In this document: one piece after another, positions 7,483 to 22,170 of the stretch
How positions within the stretch are numbered: position 1 is the stretch's first letter
How the letters are laid out: every line of letters starts with the position of its first letter
DNA from: Desulfatitalea sp. BRH_c12
GTDB lineage: Bacteria > Desulfobacterota > Desulfobacteria > Desulfobacterales > Desulfosarcinaceae
NCBI GenBank assembly: GCA_000961655.1
Contig: LADR01000014.1
Coordinates: 1-64,000, forward strand
Length of the DNA: 64,000 bases
Direction: 5' to 3'
Notes under the pieces: model-generated
Told to the model about the DNA's origin: nothing
The model's input: only the letters and a program-made list of their open reading frames with translations
The model's database searches: none
Program-made: the position numbers and the translations under genes

Positions 7483-8571
7483 ATGAAGCAAAGATTGATC
7501 GACAGAAGATCGTTTCTTAAATACTGCGGCACGATCGCGGCAACGCTGGGCCTTAGTTCAACGATGGTGCCTCGTATTGTCAAGGCGCTCACCACCGATG
7601 CCAGGCCTCCGGTGATCTGGCTCCATTTTGCCGAGTGCACGGGCTGCAGCGAGGCATTTCTGCGCGCCACCGACCCTGGCGTGGCCGACATTCTTCTGGA
7701 TGTCCTCAATGTCACCTATCATGAAACCATCCAGGTCGCCTGCGGCCAGAAGGCCGAATACAACAGGGATCAAGCAGTGGCCGATCATGCCGGGGAATTC
7801 ATATGTATTGTGGAAGGCGCCATTCCCACTGCGGACAACGGCATTTACGGCATGATCGGGGGCCGCACCATGCTGGATATCGCCCGCGCGGTGATTCCGC
7901 AGGCCAGGCACACCATCGCCCTGGGCACCTGCGCTGCCTATGGCGGACTGCCCGCAGCACAGCCCAACCCCACCGGCGCCAAAGGGGTCAAAGACGCGAT
8001 CGGCGTCGATACCATCAACATCACCGGCTGTCCGCCGCATCCCATGAACCTGGTGGCCTGCATCACCAGCTACCTGCTCAACGGCCGCATGCCCTCCCTG
8101 CGCCCGGACGGACGGCCCGAATTTTGCCATGGCAGCACAGTTCATGCTGCGTGCACGGTCCCGCACGGCTGTATGCAGGGCTACAACTGCAAGGGACCGC
8201 GCACCTACAACAACTGCGCCAGCCTGCACTACAACCAGGAATCCTGGTGCGTGCAGGCCGAGCACCAGTGTATCGGCTGCTCCGAACCCAACTTCTGGGA
8301 TCTGAACCAGCCCTTTTACAATCCAATGTGGATGTCGATGTTCGCTACCTACCGCGCCACGGCCACCCCTCACGAAGAGCAGACCACCGCCAGCTGCACC
8401 CCATGCCATGGCGGCGATATCTTCGAAAAAGAAGAGGCCCGCCAGAGCAATCCGCGCAAATTCCAACTCGCCATGCACCGCGAACACGAAATCAGCCTCA
8501 TGACCAATCGCTCCTGCGCCAGCTGCCATCCCGAAGCGCCGGGCGCAACCAACGAACGGATCGACGACTGA
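7483..8571 (+). CDS. [NiFe] hydrogenase small subunit with C-terminal di-haem c tail
   Basis: Electron-transfer subunit of a periplasmic uptake-type [NiFe] hydrogenase, 362 residues. ATG 7483 is preceded by GGAGG. The Tat signal has twin arginines at residues 8-9 (DRRSFLK) and a hydrophobic stretch. Cluster ligands are visible: C52/C55 in CTGCSE, GTCAAYGG, TGCPPHP, then the medial/distal set HAACTVPHGC, NCKGP, CVQAEHQCIGCSEPNFWD. Beyond the normal end of the family lies a roughly 60-residue extension with two haem c sites, C305-TP-C308-H309 and C345-AS-C348-H349, with H332 and H335 between them as possible axial ligands. Electrons could thus pass from the distal cluster to two covalently bound haems. 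The large-subunit gene follows. Confidence 0.9.
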   Translation: MKQRLIDRRSFLKYCGTIAATLGLSSTMVPRIVKALTTDARPPVIWLHFAECTGCSEAFLRATDPGVADILLDVLNVTYHETIQVACGQKAEYNRDQAVADHAGEFICIVEGAIPTADNGIYGMIGGRTMLDIARAVIPQARHTIALGTCAAYGGLPAAQPNPTGAKGVKDAIGVDTINITGCPPHPMNLVACITSYLLNGRMPSLRPDGRPEFCHGSTVHAACTVPHGCMQGYNCKGPRTYNNCASLHYNQESWCVQAEHQCIGCSEPNFWDLNQPFYNPMWMSMFATYRATATPHEEQTTASCTPCHGGDIFEKEEARQSNPRKFQLAMHREHEISLMTNRSCASCHPEAPGATNERIDD

Positions 8572-8643
8572 CATCCGTTCTGCCGCGGAACGCAATGATG
8601 CGTGGAGCGCCGCAGGATCGATATGAAAGGAAATGGATATACC

Positions 8644-10944
8644 ATGGCTTCCAAACCGAGCATTACCGGCATTGTGACCAGTGTCGCCACCCTCCAGGTG
8701 CCTGAAGGCGGACAAGCCTCATTCAATGTAAAACTCGCTACCCGACCGATCGCGCAGTTTGCAAAAGTCGATATCAGTCCGGTCTCCGGCGACCAGGACA
8801 TTGCGGTGACCGGTGCGACGCAATTGACTTTCACGCGGACCAATTACAACCAGTGGCAGACTGTGACGCTGACAGCCGCCAAGGACGCCGACACGCTCTG
8901 CGGACAGGCCGTCTTCCGCCTTTCCGGTAACAAGCTGCAGGAGGCCACCGTAACGGCTGTCGAAATCGACCGCGATCAGCCGGCGCCGGCCTTTGAGATC
9001 CTGACCGATTTCAGCGCCGTTACGGTAGCCGAGGGCGCCACCGGTGTGTTCAACGTCAAACTGAGCGCCGATCCCGCCCGGACGGTGGCGGTCACGGTCG
9101 GCTTCCGGGACGGGGATGCCGACATCTCCGTCGCCTCGGGTGCCACCCGCTACTTCGACAGCACCAACTGGGAGATCTACCAGCCGGTAACCCTGCAGGC
9201 CGCGGCCGATCAGGACACGACCAACGGGCAGGCCACGTTCGCCCTGGCAGCCGAAGGCGCGACGACTGTTCTCGTCACGGCGATCGAACAGGATGCCGGC
9301 GGCGAGGGCGGCAGCAAGCCTGGACGGGTGGTGATCGATCCGGTATCCAGAATCGAGGGTCATCTGCGGGTAGAGGTGGCGATCAGCGGCGGCAAGATCA
9401 CGCACGCCTGGACCACGGCCACCCTTTTCAGAGGCATCGAAACCATCCTGGGCGGCCGCGACCCGCGCGATGCGCCAATCATCACCCAACGCCTGTGCGG
9501 CGTGTGCACCTATGTGCATCAGCTCTGCTCGGTCCGGGCTATCGAAGATGCGTCGGGCACGATCGTTCCGGACAACGCCCGGCTGGTGCGCAACCTGACC
9601 CTGGGAGCGCAGTTCATGCACGATCACATCGTGCATTTCTTCCATCTGCACGGGCTGGACTGGGTGGACATCACCAGTGCGCTGCGCGCCGATCCGGCGG
9701 CGACCGCGCGTCTGGCCGCGAGCGTCAGCCCCGAAGCGGACGCCATTGATTTCAGCGCGGTCCAGCAGCGGTTGCAGGGCCTGGTAAACACCGGCAACCT
9801 GGGTCCCTTTGCCAATGCCTACTGGGGACACGCCGAATACCGCCTGGCGCCGGAGGAGAATCTTCTGGTCACGGCCCACTACCTGACGGCCCTCGAGCTG
9901 CAGGTCACGGCGGCCAAAATGATGGCCATTCTGGGCGGCAAGAATCCGCACCCCCAATCCACCATTGTCGGCGGCGTCACCTGCGGCGGCGAATTGACGC
10001 CCGATCGGCTGCACACGTTCCGCGACCACCTCGAGCGGACCCGCCGCTATGTGGCCAATGTCTACCTGCCTGACCTGAGGGTGATCGCGGAGCGCTATCC
10101 AGACTGGAAATCGGTCGGCGGCTTCAACAACTTCCTGGCTGTGGGCGAATTTCCGCAAAGCGCCGCACCCGACGACCTGTTCATGCCGCGCGGCGTCATT
10201 CTGAACGGCGACATCTTCAATGTCCAGCCGCTGGACGAATCCGCGATTACGGAACATGTGGCACGCTCATGGTATACTGGCACCACCGACCGGCATCCTC
10301 TGGTAGGCGAAACCCAGCCGGCCTACACGGGCCTGGACCTCGACGACCGCTACTCATGGTTCAAGGCACCGCGCTACGACGGAGCCGCCATGGAGGTCGG
10401 CCCTCTGGCGCGGGTCCTGGTCGGTTACGGTTTGGGCAAACCCGAGTTCGTCCGCGCCGTGCATGATTTTTTGATCGAAACCGGCCTGTCGGAGACCGAT
10501 CTGGCCTCCACCCTGGGCCGCACGGCGGCCCGGGCGATCGAAACCGCCATCATCGGGGACGGCATGGTTCAATGGCTCGCTCAACTGGAAAGCAACCTGG
10601 CGGGAGGCGACAAGGAGATTTTTACGGCGTACAACATGGCGTCCGGAACCGGGAGAGGCCTGCTCGAAGCGCCGCGCGGCGCCCTGGGGCATTGGATCGA
10701 TTTTGAAAACAGTGCGATCCGGCGCTATCAGATGGTGGTCCCCACGACTTGGAACCTGGGTCCGCGCTGTGCGGCCGGCACGCCCGGCGCGTTGGAACAG
10801 GCGCTGGTGGGCGTACCGGTGGCCGACCCGGACAACCCTTTGGAGATCCTGCGCGTGATCCACTCCTTCGACCCGTGTGTCGCCTGTGGGGTGCATGTCA
10901 TCGACACCGACAATAATCGGACTTTTGATATCAAAGTCGTGTAA
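8644..10944 (+). CDS. [NiFe] hydrogenase large subunit with two N-terminal Calx-beta-like domains
   Basis: Catalytic subunit, 766 residues from ATG 8644 (ATG 8623 and GTG 8602 are in-frame alternatives). Residues about 226-766 are the hydrogenase: DPVSRIEGHLRVEV, the N-terminal nickel ligands RLCGVC (C285, C288), and the C-terminal pair DPCVACGVH (C745, C748, H751). The last 15 residues after H751 look like the tail cut off by a maturation protease. Residues 1-225 are foreign to the family: two beta-rich repeats beginning near residues 17 (VPEGGQASFNVKL) and 126 (VAEGATGVFNVKL), each ending in VTAxExD, as in Calx-beta-like surface proteins. There is no signal peptide, so export should ride on the Tat signal of the small subunit. 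No hyp or protease genes are nearby. Confidence 0.9.
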   Translation: MASKPSITGIVTSVATLQVPEGGQASFNVKLATRPIAQFAKVDISPVSGDQDIAVTGATQLTFTRTNYNQWQTVTLTAAKDADTLCGQAVFRLSGNKLQEATVTAVEIDRDQPAPAFEILTDFSAVTVAEGATGVFNVKLSADPARTVAVTVGFRDGDADISVASGATRYFDSTNWEIYQPVTLQAAADQDTTNGQATFALAAEGATTVLVTAIEQDAGGEGGSKPGRVVIDPVSRIEGHLRVEVAISGGKITHAWTTATLFRGIETILGGRDPRDAPIITQRLCGVCTYVHQLCSVRAIEDASGTIVPDNARLVRNLTLGAQFMHDHIVHFFHLHGLDWVDITSALRADPAATARLAASVSPEADAIDFSAVQQRLQGLVNTGNLGPFANAYWGHAEYRLAPEENLLVTAHYLTALELQVTAAKMMAILGGKNPHPQSTIVGGVTCGGELTPDRLHTFRDHLERTRRYVANVYLPDLRVIAERYPDWKSVGGFNNFLAVGEFPQSAAPDDLFMPRGVILNGDIFNVQPLDESAITEHVARSWYTGTTDRHPLVGETQPAYTGLDLDDRYSWFKAPRYDGAAMEVGPLARVLVGYGLGKPEFVRAVHDFLIETGLSETDLASTLGRTAARAIETAIIGDGMVQWLAQLESNLAGGDKEIFTAYNMASGTGRGLLEAPRGALGHWIDFENSAIRRYQMVVPTTWNLGPRCAAGTPGALEQALVGVPVADPDNPLEILRVIHSFDPCVACGVHVIDTDNNRTFDIKVV

Positions 10945-11075: not shown

Positions 11076-11714
11076 CTACCCCTCACCGCCCTGGTCATCG
11101 CGACCCGCACGCCGTTGCGTCGCGCCAGTCGTCTCCGCGGCCCCCTTCAAAGCATCCTGGACGCCGGAAAATTCGATCTCCGGCAGCTCTCGTTGGGTCG
11201 CCAGTTCCAGTGCAAAATAGCTTTGCTTTTCAAATCCGAATCGTCTGGCGATGAAAACGGCGGGGAAAGACTCGACCAGCGTGTTGAATCTACCCACAAA
11301 GCGGTTGTACCGGTTTCTGGCCTTTTGAATATCTTCTTCGACTTCGTCGAGCGTGTTGTGAAGCGCGATGAAATTGGCGCTGGCTTTCAGATCCGGATAG
11401 GCTTCGGCCAGTCCCAGAAGACCGCGCAGCGTTTCTGAGATCCGGCTTTCCTCTTCGACACGATTGGGGATGTTCGCCGCGCCGGTCAAGTAGTCACCCT
11501 TGGTTCTGAAAAGGCTCGCCTCATGCTGGCTGTAACCTTCAATGGTGCGGATCAGATTGGGGATCAGACTGGATCGACGCTTCAAGGCAACATCGATGCC
11601 GCTCCAGGCCTCCTCGATGCCGTTTTTGTATTTGACGAAACGATTGTAGATACCGATCAGCGAGGCGACGGCGACGAAGAGGAAAAACAACAGAAAAATG
11701 ACGAGCGGTGCCAT
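11076..11714 (-). CDS. LemA family protein
   Basis: A 212-residue membrane-anchored coiled helical protein. One N-terminal membrane segment (VIFLLFFLFVAVASLIGIY) is followed by the LemA signature region: YNRFVKYKNGIEEAWSGID, KRRSSLIPNLIRTI, and NRYNRFVGRFNTLVESFPA. ATG 11714 is preceded by GAGGAG. The molecular role of LemA proteins is poorly defined; they are usually linked to the envelope. It is followed 43 bases downstream in genome order by a GlsB-like membrane protein on the same strand, so an envelope-stress pair is plausible. Confidence 0.9.
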   Translation of the reverse strand: MAPLVIFLLFFLFVAVASLIGIYNRFVKYKNGIEEAWSGIDVALKRRSSLIPNLIRTIEGYSQHEASLFRTKGDYLTGAANIPNRVEEESRISETLRGLLGLAEAYPDLKASANFIALHNTLDEVEEDIQKARNRYNRFVGRFNTLVESFPAVFIARRFGFEKQSYFALELATQRELPEIEFSGVQDALKGAAETTGATQRRAGRDDQGGEG

Positions 11715-16779: not shown

Positions 16780-19700
16780 TCAGCCGTCTACTCTTCGCCG
16801 TATTTCCAGAAGGGCATTTCCCATTTCCGACTCAAGGGTCGCTTCCGGAGGCGCGTCGACGATGTTTTTTAGAAATTCAATATGCTCCAGGACTGAACGG
16901 AACTCGCGTGGCGAACCGATCCTCTGCTTGATTTCCAGGTACGCCGCGGCGATCTGCTCTGTGTACAAGGCCAGATCCCTTTTCTCCAGGTGCTCCAGGA
17001 GCCGGCAATCGACCGCGGTAATGGCGCTCCAGAAATCCGGGGCCTCGCGATGGCTGGCCGTTGCGCCTTCGGCGGCTTTTTCCAAAAGGACCTTAAAATC
17101 GTCCGGTTTGTGGGACGTATCGCCGAGCAGTTCCAGCAAAACCCCTGCGGTAAGCCAGTTGAGCAAAGCGTAAAATCCGGACTTACCCTTTTCTCCTTGA
17201 ATGCCACAGGCGGCTTTATATTTTTCAGCCATGCGGCCAAGCGCAACTTTTTTTTCATCGAGGCTTTCGGCGATCATTGCGCTTCGCTTGGCAGCGCTTC
17301 CCAGCAGGCTTTCACGTTCCGCGGTCGGGCCTAACGTGTCGATCATCTGTTGAATCTTCTTCTCGGACTCCTTGATCAAAGCTTTGGACGTCCGCACGTC
17401 CTCTTGTGCGACCGCCCAGCGTGTCTGCAGATCAAAAAGCTGTTCGATTGCCAAAAAGGGGAACTGCGCTTTTTCGATTTGCAGGAGATAACGGTAGTGC
17501 GTCACCGCCTCGGCAAACAGGTCTAGTTCGCCGCAGGCATGCCCCAGGGCAGCCCGCACCTCACCCGCGCCCAGCCATTTTTTGGGCAGAATCTGCACGA
17601 TGCGCTGCACACTTTCCCTCAGTGCGGCAATCTCGCTGTCCGAAGCCGAAGCGGCTTGCCCCGCGATATTTCCCAAGGCGACGACCGCCTCTGCCGGTGC
17701 GTTAAAAGACAGTTTGGCCTCTTGGTGCATGGGGACGGCACCCTTTCGCACAAGACTGAAGGCCGGATCGCCATAACACTGGTAGGCCCCCCAGGTGTTC
17801 ACGTGGGGATAGTTGGCGTATATGACCTGGCGCGCATGCAGAACCGCGGCCCCAAAGGGAATGCCCGACAGCATTTTGCTGTAGAACTCACTGGCAAAGG
17901 TTTGCGCGGCCGCGTCATCGACGGCCCAGCCTGCGGCAACCACGGCCCGCACGCCCATATTGATAAGCTCTTTGCCAAGATTGGCTGCCAGTTTGGGCGG
18001 ATGATTGGGCGGGCGGTCGTCCTCTTTTTCAATTTTTCCAAGATGACAACAGTTGACAAACACCATCTCTGGAACAGCGCGCATCTGACGGATCAGGGCC
18101 GGTGTGAGAAATTGATTTTTGCCGATCACCATTCCCGAGATGCCTTTGCCGCGGGTCTCCGATCCGCAGACATCGCAGATGACCTTTTTCTTTTCAGGGT
18201 CGTAGTTATAGACGCCGTGGCCCGCAAGATGAAGAATGCGGTAGTCCCGAACATACACCTCTCTGAGAATGTCCTTGGCACTTTTTCCAATGAGCGCCGT
18301 CACCTGGTAGCCCCTGCCTTCAAGGGTCCGGACAACTTCGCCGGCTTCTTTTTCGGCCCCGGAAAGCGGGGGAAAATTGCTGGGCGGATCGCCCACCACC
18401 AGGGCCGTCTCCCCCAGCGCCATCACCACACGCTCCCGGTAGTCACCGGTTTGCAGCTGGCGCACCATTCCCGCTTGAATCGCAAGGGGCTTGGGCGCCC
18501 AACCGCTGGCCATGCGGGCGCCGGCCGGCCGCTCCTTCATCAGTTCCCAAGGATAGCGGGCCGAACCGTCGTTCAGCACCAGTACAATGTCCCGACGTTC
18601 GGGCGCATATTCTTTCAGTTCATTGGGAACCAGCATTTCAAACAAGGTGACAGCGACCTCATCCTCGAAGGCCGTGGCACGAACGATGGCGTCATCGATG
18701 AACAGGTCGACCAACTGGCGCTGCGTCGGTTGCAGATGCACTTCCGCCCTGGCCCGATCGGTCAATAGATTAAACCTGAGACGTTCCTGCTTGTCCTCCA
18801 CGATCTCCAGACGCTGCCACCAGGGCGGTTCTTCCGCAAAACAGGCCCGCTTGCATCCTCCGGGCAGGCATCTGATTTCAAGTTCCGGATCGATGTTGAA
18901 ACTGCTGGCGATATCCGTATTTCGGCTGATGCGGGCGAGGGCCTGGGCAGCCAGGATGGCACGATCTTCGTAGAGTTCCAGAAATTCGACCGCATCGATC
19001 CGCACCCGGTCGGCAAACTTATTTTCTTCCAGATTCTGATTGGCGTGGGCGATCCCCCGCAGAATAGCCGTAAGCGCATCGCCCACGCCGATGCCCCCGG
19101 CGCCGGTGCCGACAAGCAGGCAAGCCATTTTGGCGGACACCCGCGTGCTGCCGCCCGCTTTTTCCCGGATGGCTTGATCCCATTGTGTTTTGGCATACAT
19201 CCGGGTCCCGCGCGAAACAGCCTGCATCAGGCGCCCGGGAGACAGGCTGCCCACTTCTCCCAGGCCTATGACAACGGCGCCGGCCGGTTTTTTGTGTGGA
19301 TTGAGAAAAACTTCGGCCGTGTCTTCTTTTCCCGGATAAAGCCCCAGGCTGTGCAGGTCGGCCAAGCGCCCCCCCAGAACCCTGTTCAGATGGGCCTCAG
19401 CGCTGACGATGGTGTCGCCCGCGTAGTGGCCGACCATGATCGGATGGTTGGCGTAAGCCAGATTGCCATGCGCCACAGTGACCTCCGCCCGGTGGGCTTT
19501 TTCTTTTTGCACGGCCTTTTTGGCGCCGAGGGCGATGCGGGCTAAGTCCTCCTGGTCCGGGAATAGCGGGGTTTTCTCCACCGGCATCTCGAACAACTCG
19601 GGAAGGCCGCGGGTCACCGGGGGCGTTATAGGCAGCCGGTTCGTGGCACCCTTTTCGAGCAGGTCGAGAATGGCATCGAAGGCCTCCCTGTGATTGGGCA

Positions 19701-22170
19701 GATCGCCATGGGCCGCGTCCATGTACCAGGTCTTGACGCCTGGCAGCATGCCGGTCGCCCAGGGAACCCGGCCGTCCCCTTGAGAGGTCGCAAGAAAGGC
19801 GATATCCCGCGTGCTCTTTTTCCCCTGGGAAATGACGATGTCCACCGGCGTCGCCGGGGCATGCCCGGCCACATAGAGCATCCGTTGGGGGTCGACCGTT
19901 TTCTCATTCTTAAAAATAGTGTCACGCACTTTTTTGGCGGCCGCCAGCCTTTGTTTCTTCGGAAGCGGCCAGGCACCGGCATCCTGATCGCTTTTTCGAA
20001 TCTGTTCCCATCCTTCCGCTGAAAACAGATCCAGCGTGCCGTGAACCGGCATCATTTCCAGAAAACCGGGGAATTCCGAAACGATTTCCAACAGCTCTTT
20101 CTTATTGTTGACAAAGTCGAGCAAAGCGAGTTTTTTGATCAACGTGTCGCGACCGGTCAGAACCAGGGGGACACAGTAGGCGCCGCCGTTGGGGGTCCCC
20201 AACATGATCAACCGGGCCTCGGGATGCCTGCACATGCGCTCCCAGACGGTGCCGCCCTCGGGTGTGGCGATCATGGCCCGCGCCACCAACCCGCCCATGG
20301 AGTGGGCCAGGATGCTGACAGGCTGGTCGTGTTTTTCCGATTCGTCGAGCTTGCGCGTGATGGCCTCCGCCAGGCGCAACGCCTCGATCTCAAGGGAAAG
20401 ACGCCAGTCGAAAGCGAAGGGGACCACCTCGTGGGTTCTGGCCAAAAAGCGGGTGATATCCGCATAGACCGTCCACACGGGGCACTCCGCACGCACCGCC
20501 TGTGCCGTCATTTTCAACTTGGACATACCGCCGAAGGCCAGATCCACAAAATCCAGCCAGATCCGATTCCGGCCCACCTCCAGGTGACTGCCCATGATGC
20601 CCGGCACGAGAAAAACGATCGGCTTTGGCGGACCGCCCTCGCGTCGGTAGGGCGGCTCGCCGGCATCGGTTTTACGCACTATGTACGGGGTAAAATCATC
20701 TTTTTTTCCCGCAGGCCGTGTAATGGCCTGGGCCAGATCCCGGAGGTTGTCCGCATTCTCGAAATAGTGAAAATGCGTGACCTCTTTGCCCTGGTAAAAA
20801 CGAAAGGCAGCACCGCCCTTGCGTTCTGCCCCACCAAACATGGCGGATGTGTTGACCACCAGGTCGTGATCGTCGAGATAGAGCGGGTCGGTCAACAACG
20901 TGCCCAACAGGCTCCAGGTGTTTGCGCCCGCGATATCTCCGGCGATGATCCGCAATTCTCCGTCCACCAGGCGATCGGGGCGGTTCAACATGCGGACCAG
21001 CGCGGAACCGGGGATCATCGCCTCGATGCCGGGCAGAACAGCAGGATTGGCGCGTTCTCTGGCGATCGCCATCAGGAGCTCGGTGAAAATATCGAAGGCC
21101 ACTTTCCCCGGCCCCGCCTGAAAGACCGGTATTTTTTCAATCAGGCTGAAAACGAGGGAAAGATAGATGTCAAAGCGCTCCGATGCGAGGGTCGTCCCCC
21201 AAGCCGGACAGGCCACGCGCACAAAACGCGCCACCTGGATCCGTTTCTCCTTGAGCAGACTGTTCAGCACCTCAAGAGACCCGCGGTCGGCCTTGGGGTC
21301 GTCTTTTTTGAAGAGCGCGAAATCGAGTTCATCGAAAGGATCGCGGCCTTCCGACATCTGAGCACGGCAGAGAAGTTCTCCGATCAGCCCGCCGCGAGAA
21401 TGGGAAACCAGATGCAAACGTGCGCCGGCCGGGAGTTGCTTGAGCAGGGCAATCGCATTGTGCACAGGGCTTTGTGACAGAGAGTGGTGTTCGAAGCCGA
21501 ACACATGGTTCTGGTAAGGCGCAAAAAGCGCTTCCCGAATCGCCTTTTTTTCGGCCTGCGGATCCCACAGCTTGCCGAAGCTGCCTTCAGTGGTGGATGC
21601 CATACCATGCAGGAAAAGCAAAAGGGGGCGATCGGGCGCTATGTCAGATGGCGCAACAAGGTCGCCCAGCTCAAATCGGTCGCCGGTTGCGCATCGGCGC
21701 AGGCCGGGTCCGGGTCCCCTCTCCGATTTCCCCAGGGTGTGGTTTTCCCACAGTTCGGCGAGGGTCATGGCCGCCTGACCAGGCACATCGATCTGGAAGA
21801 ACTTAAGCGTCTTGATCACCAGCGACCCGATCATGCCGCGTGCGGCACCGTACAACGGCAGCGTTGGCGACAGGTCATACACCCCATCCGCTTCGCGCTT
21901 TGCACCGGACTTGAGAATGGCTGCACAGAGGCGCTCGCTGGTAGTGATCAGACGGGTGCCATTTTCCAGCGCGATGATCACGACCTCATCGGGATCATAG
22001 TCGTGGGTTGGCGAATCCGCATCTCCGGAGCGCATTGCGGAAACCACGTAAGATGCGCTTTTTTGAATCCCTAATGTCTTTGGCGCCTCAATTTCCGGGC
22101 GTTGTAGATCGTCGACATGCACTATCCCCGGTATCCGCAGTTTCCTGACGGCATTTGTCTTGTCTTGCAT
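16780..22170 (-). CDS. Giant CHAT protease fused to two alpha/beta-hydrolase domains
   Basis: A single 1796-residue frame; ATG 22170 is preceded by AAAGGATGG. Residues 1-180 are unassigned. Residues about 184-480 form an alpha/beta hydrolase with LLLFLHGMAS and the nucleophile elbow SHSRGG (Ser258). Residues about 510-830 form a second, lipase/PGAP1-like hydrolase: VFLVPGIMGSHLE, AHSMGG (Ser624), MLGTPNGG. Residues about 880-1190 are a glycine-rich unassigned region (VVIGLGEVGSLSPGR, ACLLVGTGAGGIG). Residues about 1193-1468 are a CHAT caspase-like protease with HLAGHG (His1318) and VFVNCCHLG (Cys1375 probably catalytic). The rest to the end is helical, TPR- or coil-like. There is no signal peptide or membrane segment. 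Such architecture suggests a protease-gated lipase or esterase effector, perhaps in defence or cell death; substrates are unknown. Confidence 0.85.
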   Translation of the reverse strand: MQDKTNAVRKLRIPGIVHVDDLQRPEIEAPKTLGIQKSASYVVSAMRSGDADSPTHDYDPDEVVIIALENGTRLITTSERLCAAILKSGAKREADGVYDLSPTLPLYGAARGMIGSLVIKTLKFFQIDVPGQAAMTLAELWENHTLGKSERGPGPGLRRCATGDRFELGDLVAPSDIAPDRPLLLFLHGMASTTEGSFGKLWDPQAEKKAIREALFAPYQNHVFGFEHHSLSQSPVHNAIALLKQLPAGARLHLVSHSRGGLIGELLCRAQMSEGRDPFDELDFALFKKDDPKADRGSLEVLNSLLKEKRIQVARFVRVACPAWGTTLASERFDIYLSLVFSLIEKIPVFQAGPGKVAFDIFTELLMAIARERANPAVLPGIEAMIPGSALVRMLNRPDRLVDGELRIIAGDIAGANTWSLLGTLLTDPLYLDDHDLVVNTSAMFGGAERKGGAAFRFYQGKEVTHFHYFENADNLRDLAQAITRPAGKKDDFTPYIVRKTDAGEPPYRREGGPPKPIVFLVPGIMGSHLEVGRNRIWLDFVDLAFGGMSKLKMTAQAVRAECPVWTVYADITRFLARTHEVVPFAFDWRLSLEIEALRLAEAITRKLDESEKHDQPVSILAHSMGGLVARAMIATPEGGTVWERMCRHPEARLIMLGTPNGGAYCVPLVLTGRDTLIKKLALLDFVNNKKELLEIVSEFPGFLEMMPVHGTLDLFSAEGWEQIRKSDQDAGAWPLPKKQRLAAAKKVRDTIFKNEKTVDPQRMLYVAGHAPATPVDIVISQGKKSTRDIAFLATSQGDGRVPWATGMLPGVKTWYMDAAHGDLPNHREAFDAILDLLEKGATNRLPITPPVTRGLPELFEMPVEKTPLFPDQEDLARIALGAKKAVQKEKAHRAEVTVAHGNLAYANHPIMVGHYAGDTIVSAEAHLNRVLGGRLADLHSLGLYPGKEDTAEVFLNPHKKPAGAVVIGLGEVGSLSPGRLMQAVSRGTRMYAKTQWDQAIREKAGGSTRVSAKMACLLVGTGAGGIGVGDALTAILRGIAHANQNLEENKFADRVRIDAVEFLELYEDRAILAAQALARISRNTDIASSFNIDPELEIRCLPGGCKRACFAEEPPWWQRLEIVEDKQERLRFNLLTDRARAEVHLQPTQRQLVDLFIDDAIVRATAFEDEVAVTLFEMLVPNELKEYAPERRDIVLVLNDGSARYPWELMKERPAGARMASGWAPKPLAIQAGMVRQLQTGDYRERVVMALGETALVVGDPPSNFPPLSGAEKEAGEVVRTLEGRGYQVTALIGKSAKDILREVYVRDYRILHLAGHGVYNYDPEKKKVICDVCGSETRGKGISGMVIGKNQFLTPALIRQMRAVPEMVFVNCCHLGKIEKEDDRPPNHPPKLAANLGKELINMGVRAVVAAGWAVDDAAAQTFASEFYSKMLSGIPFGAAVLHARQVIYANYPHVNTWGAYQCYGDPAFSLVRKGAVPMHQEAKLSFNAPAEAVVALGNIAGQAASASDSEIAALRESVQRIVQILPKKWLGAGEVRAALGHACGELDLFAEAVTHYRYLLQIEKAQFPFLAIEQLFDLQTRWAVAQEDVRTSKALIKESEKKIQQMIDTLGPTAERESLLGSAAKRSAMIAESLDEKKVALGRMAEKYKAACGIQGEKGKSGFYALLNWLTAGVLLELLGDTSHKPDDFKVLLEKAAEGATASHREAPDFWSAITAVDCRLLEHLEKRDLALYTEQIAAAYLEIKQRIGSPREFRSVLEHIEFLKNIVDAPPEATLESEMGNALLEIRRRVDG

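Follow-up and report, generated by a model that had tools for sequence, protein, structure and literature searches.

A hydrogenase large subunit fused to tandem beta repeats

In Desulfatitalea sp. BRH_c12, beta repeats are fused in one reading frame to the intact large subunit of a group-1 [NiFe] hydrogenase, next to a small subunit that carries a diheme extension. The rebuilding is real and inherited, and it probably serves to tether the enzyme and to wire it to cytochromes outside the cell membrane. The gene pair lies in the window analyzed here, a stretch of 64,000 nucleotides on contig 11 of a 6.0-Mb genome whose named relatives are Desulfosarcinaceae. As the first-pass annotation had proposed, the catalytic domain is preceded in a single frame by an extension, here measured at about 220 residues, that holds two homologous beta repeats; the features are as follows:

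8644..10944, + strand: fused large subunit, 766 amino acids from ATG 8644; other in-frame starts at 8623 and 8602
8665..8976, + strand: Ig-like beta-sandwich repeat 1 (AF2 block pLDDT about 83-94; A10 profile match 8668-8976)
8995..9297, + strand: Ig-like beta-sandwich repeat 2 (AF2 block pLDDT about 91-98; A10 profile match 8995-9300)
9298..9327, + strand: short Gly/Ser-rich linker of about 10 residues (pLDDT <50 at 220-225; variable in the alignment)
9328..10941, + strand: [NiFe] catalytic domain, containing the two CxxC pairs (RLCGVC, DPCVACGVHV) and a maturation tail at the C-terminus

The frame is open from a GTG at 8602 to the stop at 10944, with ATG codons at 8623 and 8644. Residues 270-758 of the 773-residue product counted from 8623 matched PF00374 over positions 1-508 of 508, and the N- and C-terminal CxxC nickel ligands of group-1 large subunits were present, DPCVACGVHV being encoded with a Cys codon rather than selenocysteine. 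The closest PDB structure for the catalytic part was that of the Desulfovibrio vulgaris Miyazaki F enzyme (1h2a_L, E=1.5e-189, residues 231-770).

The extension might be a neutral passenger, or its start might be mis-called, the functional enzyme then beginning near 9319, where other group-1 large subunits begin; long open frames do occur by chance upstream of ordinary ones (G432, G694, G524 and G1074). However, the extension is homologous, domain-length and conserved over two classes, the arm being 50-59% identical to its counterpart in five other genomes, and a seventh genome (G967) carries it as well. Its codon positions 1/2/3 differ by 35/26/63% from those of G099, with similar figures for other homologues, so that third positions take most of the substitutions, as they do in the core. 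In the homologues with an examined start, an ATG was found before the repeats with an AGGA-like, possible ribosome-binding site upstream. Because the extension is conserved, the substitutions are of the coding type and the homologues start before the repeats, a start near 9319, which the first-pass annotation had named as a finding that would count against the fusion, was rejected as far as sequence allows, as was an artefactual frame, and we regard this reading as very improbable. Judged from these comparisons, the extension is old and selected.

Fold and family of the N-terminal repeats

An AF2 model of the arm, based on an alignment of five homologues, consisted of two beta sandwiches (mean pLDDT 89.7, pTM 0.85) that correspond to repeats of about 105 residues each (residues 8-111 and 118-218; 38% mutual identity); the alignments were shallow, and the full-length model of the large subunit reached a pLDDT of 47 in the catalytic part. 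At the sequence level, no convincing match to the first 220 residues was obtained in Pfam, NCBIfam or the PDB.

The repeats had been called Calx-beta-like, a name that was not confirmed. The Calx-beta model PF03160 was not matched in the domain search of the N-terminal residues, nor did any of the repeats match Pfam, and hhalign of the repeats against six PF03160 domains yielded a colinear but weak alignment (probability 7.6%, E 0.0046). Foldseek searches of the PDB matched many kinds of tandem Ig-like chain with strong E-values, the top folds being those of ciliary central-apparatus proteins, titin, RbmA, the SbsB S-layer protein and cadherins, and Calx-beta entries were absent among the 50 matches listed; the whole-length TM-scores were low, as is to be expected where the angle between two domains can vary. 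A viral structure library likewise returned only generic Ig-like matches to the arm. With no Pfam match, a weak profile alignment and a generic fold, the arm is therefore named here as Ig-like repeats of an unnamed family, which is perhaps akin to Calx-beta, sharing with it a tandem beta sandwich of about 105 residues. Four acidic residues (Asp43, Asp74, Asp76 and Glu100) were invariant in 15 repeats, and their pattern would suit Ca2+ binding.

No other protein with this repeat was found in the same genome, and borrowing from an adhesin encoded there was rejected. Similar repeats were found in large unrelated proteins of two other genomes (G387 and G583); in G387, a protein on contig 46 (L011) contains this beta repeat six times or more, following repeats of other kinds, and may represent the donor family.

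A diheme small subunit with an altered medial-cluster ligand

Directly upstream of the fused large subunit lies its small subunit, whose diheme extension had been overlooked in the first-pass annotation and bears directly on the idea, put forward there, that the arm could hold a redox partner:

7483..8571, + strand: [NiFe] hydrogenase small subunit, 362 amino acids (PF01058, PF14720, TIGR00391; best PDB match 1h2a_S)
7483..7590, + strand: twin-arginine signal region (MKQRLIDRRSFLKYCG...), TIGR01409 26.5 bits against a cut-off of 16.7
8248..8250, + strand: Cys256 at the medial-cluster position, SWC for the NWP (Pro) of D. vulgaris, from the alignment to 1h2a_S
8323..8568, + strand: C-terminal diheme extension of about 80 residues, containing two CXXCH motifs and the invariant His297, His332 and His335
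8395..8409, + strand: heme site 1, CTPCH, read in the sequence; pattern invariant in homologues
8515..8529, + strand: heme site 2, CASCH, read in the sequence; pattern invariant in homologues

The ligands of the proximal, medial and distal clusters and the Tat signal, as in group-1 enzymes, were all present in the small subunit, and the RRxFLK of the signal was conserved across homologues. The signal is found on the small subunit only; because the large subunit has none of its own, it must travel with its Tat-tagged partner, and the arm would thereby cross the membrane folded. The earlier suggestion of folded translocation by the Tat complex is thus backed by the twin-arginine match, by analogy with the established export of [NiFe] hydrogenases.

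The small subunit ends in the heme extension instead of a membrane tail. Its CXXCH sites, accompanied by candidate axial His residues, are as in multiheme c-type cytochrome domains. Matches to cytochrome models were weak: the best, MtrC/MtrF II-IV, gave 23.9 bits against a cut-off of 30, and the models of cytochrome c7 and of class III also stayed below the cut-off. Where the ordinary hydrogenase of this genome has Pro at the medial-cluster position, the fused enzyme has Cys256, which predicts an all-cysteine [4Fe-4S] medial cluster of low potential. The prediction follows what is reported of the D. fructosovorans enzyme with this Pro mutated to Cys, and such a cluster would suit low-potential bis-His hemes.

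Compared with the D. vulgaris Miyazaki F periplasmic hydrogenase (1h2a), the enzyme is alike in both subunits, in the Ni-Fe and FeS ligands, in Tat export and in the C-terminal maturation site, whereas the D. vulgaris enzyme lacks N-terminal beta domains and a heme extension, has Pro at the medial cluster and a longer small-subunit loop. The [NiFeSe] hydrogenases of sulfate reducers, likewise of the periplasmic type, have an all-Cys medial [4Fe-4S] cluster; they differ in giving a weaker match, in having selenocysteine where the fused enzyme has a Cys codon, and in lacking the Ig-like arm and the fused hemes.

Distribution and history of the fused hydrogenases

The suggested comparison with other Desulfobacterota recovered the same fusion in genomes of two classes. 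A class-wide search of 390 genomes revealed four others that carry the extension in full (59-62% identity across extension and junction), three of them being Desulfosarcina alkanivorans PL12 (complete genome), Desulfosarcina sp. Hel50_75_bin69 and the Desulfosarcinaceae MAG MO_167. A scan of genome contigs added Halodesulfovibrio spirochaetisodalis JC271, and G967 came from searching the class to which Halodesulfovibrio belongs. In these six genomes the repeats are conserved, with 2-3 copies each, MO_167 and G967 having three. One repeat each was found in G655 (by the repeat profile) and in G1075 (by family search). All searches covered genome sets. The strongest large subunits listed from 395 genomes mostly have open frames of 550-620 residues, and the longer frames examined in G432, G694 and G524 begin at an ordinary start; G300, G432, G524, G694, G1074 and G1081 were discarded as further fusions, having only open sequence upstream of such a start.

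The hydrogenase of G318 (large subunit at L082 1523-3475) resembles the repeat-bearing enzymes in having an N-terminal fusion at the same place, but the fused domain, of about 115 amino acids and without a Pfam match, is of another, unrelated family, hemes are absent and the medial position is Pro. In catalytic-domain trees (IQ-TREE, LG+C20), the ten large subunits with an extra N-terminal domain formed one clade (100/99), separate from the ordinary sulfate-reducer hydrogenases, with G318 sister to all repeat-bearing members, followed by the one-repeat pair (G655 and G1075) and then by the diheme members. The fused enzyme belongs, therefore, to a distinct, sporadically distributed clade of Desulfobacterota group-1 [NiFe] hydrogenases, and the earlier statement that such repeats do not belong to hydrogenases was too strong, the whole clade having extra N-terminal domains. 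The adhesin-like tandem beta sandwiches themselves are shared with other Desulfobacterota.

The diheme extension, the same arrangement of large and small subunit genes and Cys at the medial position occur in each of the seven members that have two or three repeats; the extension is absent in G655, G1075 and G318, which have Asp, Asp and Pro, respectively, at that position. The Pro-to-Cys change thus coincides with the hemes. A strict coupling of arm and hemes is ruled out by G655 and G1075, which have an arm without hemes; given these two members and the earlier appearance of the arm in the tree, arm and hemes may well have separate functions. The simplest story is a stepwise rebuilding of the textbook enzyme, with the N-terminal domain acquired first and the fused hemes and the change of medial-cluster ligand later. 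In the window's family the diheme small subunit was found in 4 of 30 genomes; the figure is 1 of 86 for the family to which G099 belongs, 2 of 297 for the Halodesulfovibrio class (full-length match) and 1 of 395 for the phylum at large, a patchiness that likely results from loss or lateral transfer.

A further change of the small subunit follows the arm and not the hemes. In each of the nine members that bear the repeat, whether they have hemes or not, the loop joining the ligands of the distal cluster falls short of that in the genome's ordinary hydrogenase by about 19 residues; the shortfall in G318 is smaller. Such a loss would be expected if the arm were structural rather than a tether, supporting oligomers or taking the place of the shortened loop near the distal cluster. 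Nevertheless, the number of repeats varies from one to three and the arm is conserved (50-58% identity) far below the core (68-78%), neither of which resembles a fixed structural contact, and we consider a purely structural arm unlikely.

Proposed working of the enzyme

The reading that we slightly favor is that of a Tat-exported, H2-oxidizing heterodimer whose fused diheme domain passes electrons to c-type cytochromes while the Ig-like arm tethers or docks it. The heterodimer would be exported folded by means of the small-subunit signal, and H2 would most likely be oxidized at the Ni-Fe site outside the cytoplasmic membrane. Electrons would pass through three FeS clusters, the medial one predicted to be [4Fe-4S], into the fused bis-His hemes and leave these for multiheme cytochromes of the periplasm or the surface, since the genes provide neither a quinone-linked subunit nor a membrane tail. 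The arm, of one to three domains in the clade, would act as a tether or docking platform, its possible targets being a cytochrome partner, the envelope, the matrix or another copy of the enzyme. This is the best explanation of the gene pair, the domain order, the heme motifs, the cluster ligands and the clade, all of which are read directly in the genomes; the direction of electron flow, the heme ligation, the cluster type and the role of the arm are what we infer. No cytochrome or membrane subunit adjoins the pair in the window. Against this reading, no cytochrome or envelope gene adjoins the pair consistently in the homologue loci compared, and two members have the arm without hemes.

Alternatively, the arm could anchor the enzyme on the surface or the extracellular matrix, as the first-pass annotation had also considered, after Tat export and a crossing of the outer membrane (for example, by type II secretion), and wire it to external acceptors or partners. 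The fold matches to the biofilm scaffold RbmA and to an S-layer protein, the similarity, below cut-off, of the heme tail to domains of the outer-membrane cytochromes MtrC/MtrF and the variable number of repeats are consistent with such a location. Against it, the Ig-like folds are generic, no secretion or anchoring signal and no adjoining surface gene were found, and the repeat does not recur in the genome. Surface anchoring is hence doubtful, and so, to a slightly greater degree, is its fullest form, a surface-displayed or matrix-bound hydrogenase attached by the arm and wired directly by the diheme domain to extracellular cytochromes, minerals, metal or partner cells.

For the preferred periplasmic or surface cytochrome connection, location and electron acceptor are directly testable, since named strains (D. 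alkanivorans PL12 and H. spirochaetisodalis JC271) carry the enzyme. An enzyme that has a heme exit of its own is relevant to the way in which sulfate reducers join H2 to cytochrome networks. In the part of the literature available as open-access full text, no description was found of a hydrogenase with Calx-beta or Ig-like domains, nor of one with a diheme small subunit; earlier mention of either is possible.

Maturation and neighboring genes

A maturation-protease-like gene adjoins the pair in G099 and in Halodesulfovibrio, in the latter case confirmed by profile. Two different HyaD/HybD-like maturation proteases are encoded side by side on contig 38 of the Desulfatitalea genome (L040, 6398-6955 and 7142-7666), both downstream of its ordinary [NiFe] hydrogenase, and one of them may serve the fused enzyme. 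The genome encodes a third hydrogenase large subunit on contig 12 (L041, 473-1840), in which the PF00374 match crosses an in-frame TGA near the C-terminal nickel ligands, a probable selenocysteine codon. Within the window, a LemA-family protein (11079-11714, - strand) is encoded convergently with the hydrogenase pair, and positions 16780-22170 (- strand) encode a 1796-residue protein with CHAT protease, TPR-S, DUF7379 and alpha/beta-hydrolase-like matches, of the large multi-domain kind seen in caspase-like or defence systems.
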